Shown here: positions 17,758 to 20,156 of the stretch, piece by piece | How positions within the stretch are numbered: the first letter of the stretch is position 1 | Layout of the letters: each line of letters begins with the position of its first letter | Source of the DNA: Actinomycetota bacterium | Lineage (GTDB): Bacteria > Actinomycetota > Thermoleophilia > Solirubrobacterales > JACPNS01 | Reading direction: 5' to 3' | Length of the DNA: 36,233 nt | NCBI GenBank assembly: GCA_016219715.1 | Contig: JACRKX010000001.1 | Coordinates: 1 to 36,233, forward strand | Notes under the pieces: model-generated | Databases searched by the model: none | What the model was told of the DNA's origin: nothing | What the model saw: the letters and a program-made list of their open reading frames with translations, nothing else | Made by a program: the position numbers and the translations under genes

Positions 17758-18945
17758 ATGAACCCCACGATCACTCAAGACGTCGCCGAGCGGGCACTCG
17801 AGCGTGCCGCCGACGGCCACCGGCTCGATGCCGGCGAGATCATCGCTCTCTACGACCTGCCGTTCGAACGAATTGCACCGGTGGCACATGCCGCGCGCTG
17901 CCGCGTCAGCGACCCGAAAACCGTCACCTTCAGCGTCGGCGGCAACATCGACTACACCTCGATCTGCAACGTCGCCTGTAAGTTCTGCCTCTTCTACCGC
18001 ACTCCGAAGCAGGAGGGCGCCTTCGCCCTGACGACCGAGCAGGTGCTGGCGGCGCTCGACCGGCAAGTCGAGTTCGGTGTGAACGAGGTGATGGTGCAGG
18101 GCGGTGTCAACCCGGCCATCCCGTACGAGTGGTACGTCGAGACGATGCGCGCGATGAAAGAGGCGCATCCGCAGCTGTTCATCGAGTTCCTCAGCCCCGA
18201 GGAGATTCTCGGCCTCGAGAAACTGACCGGTCGTGAAGCGAGCGAAATCCTGGCCGAACTGCACGCCGCGGGAATGGACGGTCTGCCAGGCTCGGCCACG
18301 GACATCCTCGACCCGGACGTCCGGGCCCGAACGGCTCCCGCGCGCATCTCGGTCGAGGACTGGCTGCGAATCGTCGACGCCGCGCAGACCAAGGGAATGG
18401 TCGTCAACTGGACCGGCCTGGTCTTCGGTCTCGACGAAACTCCCGAACAGCGCGTCCGCCACCTGATGACGCTGCGCGATCAGCAAGACCGGGACCTCGA
18501 ACGCGGCGGCAGTGGCTTCGGCCTCTACAAGGTATGGGCGATGCGGCTGACCGGCTCGCGCCTTGACGGGAAGGTCGACATCCCGCCGGCTCAAACGACG
18601 AATCGCCGCTATCTGAAGGAACTCGCGATTCACCGCCTGGCGCTCGACAACGTGCAGACTCAGCAGGCCGTCTGGCGCACCGCCGGGTTCGAGATCGCCA
18701 AGACCGGTCTGCAGTCGGGAGCAGACGACCTCTGCGGCACCGGGTCGCTCAATGCCGTCAACGCGACGCTGCAAACGGCCGGCAAGCATCTCCCCGACCC
18801 CGACGCGAACATGGTCGCCGAGATCGTCGACGCGATCCACCAGGCCGGGTTCGACGCCGTCGAACGCGACGGGCGGTTCAAGAAGTTGCGGGTCTTCGAG
18901 CGGGAACGCCAGGAATCCACGATCGACCAGGAGGCACGACGATGA
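17758..18945 (+). CDS. Radical SAM protein, MqnC/CofH-like (copy 1)
   Basis: From ATG 17758 (GGAGG upstream): SVGGNIDYTSICNVACKFCLFYRTPKQEGA (CX3CX2C), VMVQGGVNPAIPYEWYVETMR, FLSPEEI, GLPGSATDIL, GLVFGLDETPEQRVRHLMTLRDQQDR. Confidence 0.88.
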   Translation: MNPTITQDVAERALERAADGHRLDAGEIIALYDLPFERIAPVAHAARCRVSDPKTVTFSVGGNIDYTSICNVACKFCLFYRTPKQEGAFALTTEQVLAALDRQVEFGVNEVMVQGGVNPAIPYEWYVETMRAMKEAHPQLFIEFLSPEEILGLEKLTGREASEILAELHAAGMDGLPGSATDILDPDVRARTAPARISVEDWLRIVDAAQTKGMVVNWTGLVFGLDETPEQRVRHLMTLRDQQDRDLERGGSGFGLYKVWAMRLTGSRLDGKVDIPPAQTTNRRYLKELAIHRLALDNVQTQQAVWRTAGFEIAKTGLQSGADDLCGTGSLNAVNATLQTAGKHLPDPDANMVAEIVDAIHQAGFDAVERDGRFKKLRVFERERQESTIDQEARR

Positions 18946-20156
18946 CCGATGCACAGACACGCGAACGCGGTGAGCTCGCCCTCGAGCGGGCGCGGAACGG
19001 CGAGCGATTGACGGCCGGCGAGATCGTCGCTCTGTATGCGGTACCGGCCGAAGAGGTCATCCCAATCGCCAATGCCGCACGCCTGCGCAAGACCGATCCC
19101 GAGTACGCGACATTCAGCATGGGCGGCAACATCGACTACACCTCGATCTGCAACGTCGCCTGTAAGTTCTGCACCTTCTACCGCACTCCGCGACAGGAGG
19201 GCGCGTACGCGCTGACCCCGGAACAGGTGATCGAACAGCTGGAACCGCAGGTACGGCTGGGCGTCACCGAGGTGATGATCCAAGGCGGAGTCAACCCCGA
19301 ACTGCCGTACGAGTGGTACATCGAGACCCTGCGGCTGGTCAAGCAGACCTATCCCGACCTGTTCGTCGACTTCCTCAGCCCCGAGGAGATCCGTGGACTC
19401 GAGAAGCTCACCGGTCGCGACGCGAAGGACATTCTCGCCGAACTGCAGGCGAACGGCATGGACGGCATGCCGGGCGCTTCGGCCGAGATCCTCGTCGACG
19501 AGGTGCGCCAGAAGGTGGCGCCGGCCCGAATCTCCAGCGACGACTGGTTCAGGATCGTCGACAACGTGCTCGATCTCGGCATCCACATCCACTGGACCGG
19601 CCTCGTCTTCGGGCTCGGTGAGACGATCGAGCAACGCGTCGAGCACCTCGTGCGACTACGCGACGCGCAGGATCGTGACCTCGAGCGCGGCGGGCGCGGC
19701 CTCGGCGCCTACAAGGTCTGGCCGATGCGGCTGAACGACACGCGGCTGAACGGCGTGATCGAGATCGACGACGACCAGACGATCATCGACAAGTACCTAC
19801 AGCAGGTTGCGATCCACCGGCTGGCGCTCGACAACATCGATCACCACCGCTGCGTGTGGCGCACGATGGGCTACGGCACCGCCGCGAAGGCACTGCGCGC
19901 CGGCGCCGACGACCTCTGCGGCACCGGAGCGATCAACGCGGTCACTTCGGTGCTCGAGACGGCCGGCAAGGAGGCGCCCAGGCCGTCGGAGAAGGTCTTC
20001 CACGGAGTGCTCAAATGCATCGCCGACGCCGGTTTCAAGCCGGCCGAGCGCGATCCGTTCTACAACGTCACGCGGGTTCATTCGCTCGACGACGTCGACT
20101 TCGAGAGTCAGGGCCACGACTACGTGGCCGGATTCCAGGCCACCGCAGACGTCTGA
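18942..20156 (+). CDS. Radical SAM protein, MqnC/CofH-like (copy 2, tandem paralogue)
   Basis: SMGGNIDYTSICNVACKFCTFYRTPRQEGA (CX3CX2C), VMIQGGVNPELPYEWYIETLR; ATGA overlap with copy 1. Confidence 0.88.
   Translation: MTDAQTRERGELALERARNGERLTAGEIVALYAVPAEEVIPIANAARLRKTDPEYATFSMGGNIDYTSICNVACKFCTFYRTPRQEGAYALTPEQVIEQLEPQVRLGVTEVMIQGGVNPELPYEWYIETLRLVKQTYPDLFVDFLSPEEIRGLEKLTGRDAKDILAELQANGMDGMPGASAEILVDEVRQKVAPARISSDDWFRIVDNVLDLGIHIHWTGLVFGLGETIEQRVEHLVRLRDAQDRDLERGGRGLGAYKVWPMRLNDTRLNGVIEIDDDQTIIDKYLQQVAIHRLALDNIDHHRCVWRTMGYGTAAKALRAGADDLCGTGAINAVTSVLETAGKEAPRPSEKVFHGVLKCIADAGFKPAERDPFYNVTRVHSLDDVDFESQGHDYVAGFQATADV

Follow-up and report, generated by a model that had tools for sequence, protein, structure and literature searches.

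By their sequences, the tandem radical SAM proteins rSAM1 and rSAM2 belong to a separate clade of the MqnC/MqnE/CofH superfamily and are none of these three enzymes. What is new is this clade of a known superfamily within a ten-gene operon; no published description of either the operon or the clade was found in the open-access literature searched. MqnC, MqnE and CofH carry out unusual radical C-C chemistry, each enzyme serving one cofactor. The operon lies in the 36,233-nucleotide stretch of actinomycetotal DNA that was analysed as a whole, hereafter the window.

Family assignment of the radical SAM proteins

The genes of rSAM1 (17758-18945, + strand, 395 aa), the fast-evolving copy, and rSAM2 (18942-20156, + strand, 404 aa), the conservative, orthologue-like copy of the same clade, are both intact, overlap by 4 nt (ATGA) and encode proteins of 57% identity. 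The initial annotation had described tandem radical SAM paralogues with the motifs CNVACKFC, QGGVNPxxPYEWY, FLSPEEI and ETxEQRVxHL, which was confirmed by the ORF coordinates, the identity value and a motif check, revealing each motif to be present in both proteins. The domains Radical_SAM (PF04055) and CofH_C (PF19288) scored above the gathering cut-offs in both, and these domains, the CX3CX2C motif and the fold place them in the radical SAM superfamily with a CofH_C region.

The top NCBIfam match of both proteins was MqnC (TIGR03699; E = 1e-84 to 1e-89), with 282.5 and 299.5 bits against a curated cut-off of 428.1. This implies a relation to MqnC that is beyond chance but is not equivalence. 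Scores were also below the cut-offs for MqnE (TIGR03700; 231.6 and 235.6 bits versus 434.55), CofH (TIGR03551; 183.0 and 195.3 bits versus 374.1) and the CofH-family radical SAM subfamily (TIGR00423; 213.9 and 233.4 bits versus 260.25), whereas the controls passed, with 475-501 bits for six MqnC proteins (L062, L066, L071, L075, L076, L087), 514 bits for one MqnE and 445 bits for one Binatota CofH. The CX3CX2C motif, the CofH_C region and full-length alignment are shared with MqnC at 28-36% identity and with MqnE (PDB 6XI9/6XIG) at about 27% identity; superfamily, CX3CX2C and CofH_C domain are shared with CofH, the FO synthase subunit, at 25-26% identity.

Clade placement and altered active region

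In a maximum-likelihood tree of 44 proteins, in which the MqnC group comprised 18 rows, rSAM1 and rSAM2 fell into a clade of 11 (support 100/100, branch 1.87) outside MqnC (group support 98/91), MqnE and CofH. Neither copy was thus found within MqnC or CofH, and a separate CofGH is present in the genome; it was on this outcome that the initial annotation had staked its proposal of a divergent subfamily with a different substrate. A clade profile gave 530-769 bits for members and 265 bits at most for all others, and in a second sample of 247 genomes 738 bits inside the clade versus 302 outside.

The [4Fe-4S]/SAM cysteines 70, 74 and 77 (rSAM2 numbering) are invariant in the clade. Clade-wide changes were found at positions that are near-invariant in MqnC/MqnE/CofH, namely R62G, N65D, H143D/E, S175G, K196R and S305V, and the EE(N) motif at 334-336 is lost. 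Position 143 is Asp or Glu in the clade and otherwise near-invariantly His, with Lys in the MqnE row; Arg62, His/Lys143, Ser175, Lys196 and EE(N) of MqnE/MqnC are all replaced. Markers of the clade, present in both rSAM1 and rSAM2, are GNIDYT before CX3CX2C, Asp/Glu at 143, Arg196 and TGx[IL]NA replacing EE(N). The Asn in GGxNP was dropped as a marker, since a column count showed it to occur also in CofH and many MqnC proteins.

The closest solved structure to an AlphaFold2 model of rSAM2 (pLDDT 88, pTM 0.88) was MqnE (TM 0.79/0.83). The kept cysteines, the match of the model and the clade-wide substitutions together point to an MqnE/MqnC-like fold and radical machinery with a different substrate pocket; that the changed residues line this pocket we infer from conservation rather than from coordinates. 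With scores below curated cut-offs that the controls pass, a separate clade, active-region substitutions, a conserved operon devoid of mqn and cof genes and the genome content described below, the divergent subfamily is supported, and its members very likely act on a substrate other than those of MqnC and CofH.

The ten-gene operon

The initial annotation was right about the paralogue pair and missed the operon that gives it its meaning. rSAM1 and rSAM2 are the last two of ten co-directional genes (8157-20156, all on the + strand) in the order SCP2, moB, moA, ampN, ampC, PaaK-like ligase, U32, CopD-like, rSAM1, rSAM2. Most genes overlap by 4-11 bases, the largest gaps being 64 and 55 bases, and a GGAGG-like site precedes most of them. 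No mqn or cof gene was found in the window, as the initial annotation had stated for the vicinity of the pair; in this lack of mqn neighbours the operon differs from MqnE and MqnC.

The first conserved gene encodes an SCP2 (sterol-carrier/UbiT-type) domain protein (8157-8819; Pfam SCP2 50 bits, cut-off 21.3). It is followed by moB (8812-9885), an EbdB-like Fe-S beta subunit of the type II DMSO reductase family that scored 320 bits for TIGR03478 and 280 bits for NF042979 (EbdB), both under the curated cut-offs, and moA (9875-12763), an ethylbenzene-dehydrogenase-like molybdopterin alpha subunit with 707 bits for TIGR03479. The best solved relative of moA was ethylbenzene dehydrogenase (EBDH, 2IVF; E 8e-154), the alignment starting at moA residue 33 and EBDH chain residue 71 with the IGD aspartate kept. 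Both subunits align with EBDH over nearly their full length, with conservation of the Asp in the Mo-ligand region, and this full alpha and beta homology assigns them to the type II DMSO reductase family (EBDH/S25DH); their EbdA and EbdB equivalog scores of 541 and 280 bits are below the curated cut-offs of 2000 and 740. No leader was seen in moA, the N-terminal leader region of EBDH being absent, and moA is predicted to be cytoplasmic. Unlike EBDH and S25DH, moA thus lacks a TAT leader, a gamma (haem b) gene was not recognised in the operon, and the linkage is to U32 and radical SAM genes instead.

Three genes relate to adenylate-forming (ANL) enzymes. The PaaK/FlxY-like ligase (14725-16005) has an intact P-loop (TRGTSGEP), NCBIfam scores of 105 bits for FlxY and 74 bits for PaaK, both under the cut-offs, and the PDB relatives 6SIW and 4R1L. 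The ANL homologue ampN (12828-14045; Pfam AMP-binding 36 bits) has no recognisable P-loop, nor has ampC (14042-14728), a short conserved protein with orthologues in all syntenic loci; since ampC matches no Pfam family, we describe it only as probably an ANL/PaaK-derived fragment. The P-loop is kept in the PaaK-like orthologues and absent from ampN and ampC in all aligned orthologues (12 for ampN).

The U32-family protein (16002-17171; UbiU/UbiV/TrhP superfamily, Pfam Peptidase_U32 44 bits) has the core cysteines and an extra C-terminal CX3CX2CX2C motif, with C195, C199, C229, C339, C343, C346 and C349 invariant, and reached 19 of the 440 bits required for UbiU and 23 of 534 for TrhP. The remaining part is a small CopD-like membrane protein (17172-17702; Pfam CopD 28 bits, just below the cut-off of 32.1) with orthologues in syntenic loci.

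Distant U32 relatives of 28-40% identity were found in other clusters (L166, L167, L168), the stretch of the C-terminal Cys tail being matched in several. By eye, their neighbours include B12-binding radical SAM-like, LuxE-like acyl-protein synthetase or type III PKS genes, and there may be a wider U32 enzyme group linked to radical or acyl-activating chemistry.

On one side of the operon, the window holds sufC, a sufB/D-type gene and sufS (3630-6961), and on the other, about 20 kb away, a SufB-like gene (about 26900-28253), with the operon and an ABC transporter in between. On the opposite strand lie genes for an acyl-CoA dehydrogenase and an acetoacetate-decarboxylase-like protein; a 2-aminoethylphosphonate/spermidine-type ABC transporter comes next (20533-26847 in all), and none of these is conserved beside the operon of the congener G002.

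Conservation across genomes

All operon carriers are metagenome-assembled genomes (MAGs). The same cluster with one radical SAM gene was found in G002, the groundwater Actinomycetota MAG JACQZY01, by a contig search with alignment; a query with a single protein had confirmed no relative. Identities between window and G002 are 92.5% for moA, 88% for moB, 61% for SCP2 and 61-80% for the other operon proteins, the Mo enzyme being under much stronger constraint than the rest when compared with the G002 locus (L047). In G002, no match to sufC was found close to the operon, which therefore occupies a different site in each of the two genomes, as one would expect of a mobile or inserted block. A CofGH-type match was all that three further members of the genus gave, and the operon is therefore accessory.

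Outside the phylum, MAGs named Candidatus Binatus soli, Deltaproteobacteria or proteobacterium hold the order moB-moA-ampN-ampC-PaaK-U32-CopD-MoaA-(DUF1329)-rSAM, with a moB identity of 62-65% between window and Binatota. In Binatota, one moB is followed by two or three tandem moA genes (L114, L115, L116, L169), resembling the alpha-subunit paralogues of the steroid C25 and C26 dehydrogenases, and at L115 an SCP2 protein and FAD oxidoreductases are encoded upstream of moB. MoaA or MoeA adjoins the radical SAM gene in Binatota, which fits a Mo-dependent pathway. In the sample of 247 genomes around Binatus, the U32 orthologue of the operon and the radical SAM clade occurred in exactly the same three genomes.

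Four genomes from other families of the window's order (L043, L044, L045, L046) carry a module without the radical SAM gene. It comprises moB, moA, an extra protein, CopD, ampC, PaaK, ampN and U32, the extra protein being about 490-517 aa long, with no Pfam match and a predicted structure of very low confidence (pLDDT 31); FK3.bin127 (L056/L117) is intermediate between the two versions. This implies that the module is older than its link to the radical SAM gene, or that the gene was lost, and the radical SAM enzyme may be an add-on to the module rather than a fixed step.

Proposed pathway and alternatives

Taken together in one operon, the water-using Mo hydroxylase, the anaerobic radical enzyme, the U32 protein and the SCP2 carrier point to a hydrophobic compound being oxidised and remodelled without O2. 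Probably, this operon common to unrelated soil bacteria runs undescribed O2-free chemistry on a hydrophobic molecule. The best explanation as a whole, to which we give a little less than an even chance, is that the radical SAM clade provides the radical step of an O2-independent operon acting on a hydrophobic aromatic or isoprenoid compound.

The clade, the operon, the [4Fe-4S]/SAM motif, the altered pocket and the single copy as the norm, all read from sequence, are the ground of this proposal. SCP2 would hold the compound, and the cytoplasmic EBDH-like Mo enzyme would hydroxylate it with water, electrons leaving through moB, with the CopD-like membrane protein as a possible next carrier. A carboxylate would be activated to acyl-AMP/CoA by the PaaK-like ligase, to which ampN and ampC, lacking the P-loop, would serve as partner subunits. 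The U32 Fe-S protein might add a further hydroxyl or handle a related oxygen transfer, a hydroxylase activity that we infer from its superfamily. The radical SAM enzyme would then generate the 5'-deoxyadenosyl radical, abstract a hydrogen from or add to the intermediate, and drive C-C bond formation or rearrangement of the MqnC/MqnE/CofH type. For such a step on a Mo-hydroxylated, PaaK-activated intermediate, our confidence is moderate as to reaction class and low as to substrate.

Synthesis and breakdown are not told apart by the conserved parts, and the analogies to UbiT/U/V and to sterol degraders point opposite ways. CoA-transferase, acyl-CoA dehydrogenase and DUF1329 neighbours at some loci suggest catabolism rather than biosynthesis. 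The operon might break down a hydrophobic hydrocarbon (an alkylbenzene, a terpenoid or the side chain of a sterol) in the absence of O2, as denitrifying sterol degraders do, the Mo enzyme hydroxylating, the ligase making the CoA thioester and the radical SAM and U32 proteins performing an unusual ring or chain step; we regard this, roles included, as somewhat unlikely. EBDH is the closest solved relative of moA, and besides the SCP2 protein and the neighbours just named, an acyl-CoA dehydrogenase is encoded in the window (20533-22080). The tandem moA genes of Binatota are reminiscent of the S25DH/S26DH paralogues known from Sterolibacterium (PMC6016249, PMC11061730). Sterol degraders combine flavin desaturases with Mo hydroxylases (PMC11061730, PMC6016249), and the tandem FAD oxidoreductases upstream in Binatota recall the flavin desaturase and Mo hydroxylase of stigmasterol degradation (PMC11061730). 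The catabolic neighbours vary between loci, however, while U32 and the radical SAM gene are conserved, and the leaderless moA with no recognised gamma-type gene is unlike EBDH and S25DH. Nor is any hydrocarbon pathway known to use an MqnC-type radical SAM or a U32 protein, which counts against this reading.

It appears unlikely that a new lipid quinone or aromatic cofactor is the product of the operon, SCP2 and U32 corresponding to UbiT and UbiU/UbiV and the radical SAM enzyme to MqnC/MqnE. SCP2 is paired with U32 proteins in quinone biosynthesis by UbiT/UbiU/UbiV (PMC6747719), and the two are likewise encoded together in this operon, as in O2-independent ubiquinone synthesis (PMC6747719, PMC13386864). 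MqnE is the closest fold to the rSAM2 model, and a clade member heads a futalosine-type cluster in G002 beside MqnE-, MqnA/D- and MqnC-type genes. Recruitment of mqn genes to a non-menaquinone naphthoquinone has a precedent in the gonM genes of PM100117/PM100118 (PMC4763440), in which MqnC/MqnE-type genes serve such a product; GonM2 and GonM3 share 85-93% identity with S. coelicolor MqnC/MqnE (PMC4763440), whereas the rSAM1/rSAM2 clade is far outside both. Against a quinone product, the conserved operon showed neither a UbiA-like prenyltransferase nor a UbiE-like methyltransferase gene, and no UbiD-type gene or UbiG neighbour either; MenB is present in G002 and in the Binatota carriers, so that a quinone route is not obviously lacking. 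Further, UbiU and UbiV act as a pair, whereas the operon has a single U32 protein with an extra C-terminal Cys motif and a weak UbiU match.

Duplication of the radical SAM gene

The initial annotation had suggested that the two copies act as a sequential or heterodimeric pair, and their tandem, translationally coupled arrangement with CX3CX2C intact in both would agree with a heterodimer or two successive enzymes. This was not supported. The syntenic operons of G002 and of the other-phylum MAGs contain one clade member each, and rSAM1 drifts faster, departing from the rest of the clade at 9 of 103 otherwise invariant positions (rSAM2, 3 of 97) on a branch three times longer (0.78 versus 0.25). 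Since relatives' operons have one copy, a conserved heterodimer as the rule was rejected; judged from these copy numbers, the family does not work as a heterodimer and one copy is the norm. The timing of the duplication was not fixed by the AU test, neither an origin before nor one after the split from G002 being rejected (p 0.26 and 0.20). For the window's own pair, a heterodimer or two successive enzymes is thus decidedly unlikely. We favour a duplication in the window lineage, after which rSAM2 would have kept the ancestral role while rSAM1 may be specialising or decaying.

Menaquinone and F420 gene content

The initial annotation had also raised the matter of canonical mqn or men genes elsewhere in the genome. 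Besides the pair, the window's assembly, which is 86% complete, encodes a single CofH_C protein, a CofGH fusion at another site; neither an MqnA/MqnD-family (PF02621) gene nor a MenB above the cut-off was found in it. Seven other-phylum carriers have MenB above the cut-off, no detected PF02621 and two CofH_C proteins each, the second of which, in the six that were readable, is of CofH type and groups with CofH in scans; a CofG-like gene adjoins CofH in both of the carriers checked. The futalosine-pathway partners of an MqnC were found neither in the window genome nor in these seven, PF02621 being confined to G002 among operon carriers. With CofH and MenB elsewhere in the genomes and MqnA/D absent, the clade is not the menaquinone or F420 enzyme of Binatota, and it differs from CofH in that the genomes carrying it have their own CofH or CofGH.

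In G002, a second locus (L035, 8165-14028) is led by a clade radical SAM gene, followed by MqnE-like, MqnA/MqnD-family, true MqnC and adenosine-deaminase-like genes. This clade member is diverged, with 20 departures from otherwise invariant positions. Since only one PF02621 gene was found in the genome, which also has MenB, menaquinone may not be the product of this cluster either.

Divergent menaquinone or F420 genes were rejected by the tree, the cut-offs and the genome content: that the pair is the lineage's own MqnC/CofH is highly improbable, for although MqnC is the best named match and the menaquinone route was unseen in the 86%-complete assembly (no MqnA/D, no MenB above the cut-off), both proteins are outside the MqnC clade and under cut-offs that controls pass, the window genome has CofGH, clade relatives coexist with MenB and CofH in other genomes, and G002 has a bona fide MqnC plus two clade members.

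Implications

The clade is well bounded, its pocket is remodelled, and it is fixed in one operon with a water-dependent Mo hydroxylase, an SCP2 carrier and a U32 protein, all of which suggests an additional reaction. The pathway of the operon has no counterpart in the open-access literature searched, and the Binatota genome paper makes no mention of radical SAM, molybdo- or ethylbenzene; the operon has few parts, and Actinomycetota and Binatota share its gene order. Tentatively, and with rather less than an even chance, we envisage an undescribed, oxygen-independent cross-phylum pathway in which cytoplasmic Mo hydroxylase, U32 protein and C-C-forming radical SAM enzyme act one after another on a hydrophobic substrate bound to its carrier, to give a new quinone-like cofactor or a ring-remodelled isoprenoid or steroid. 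If this is true, the product would be one not yet known from any organism.
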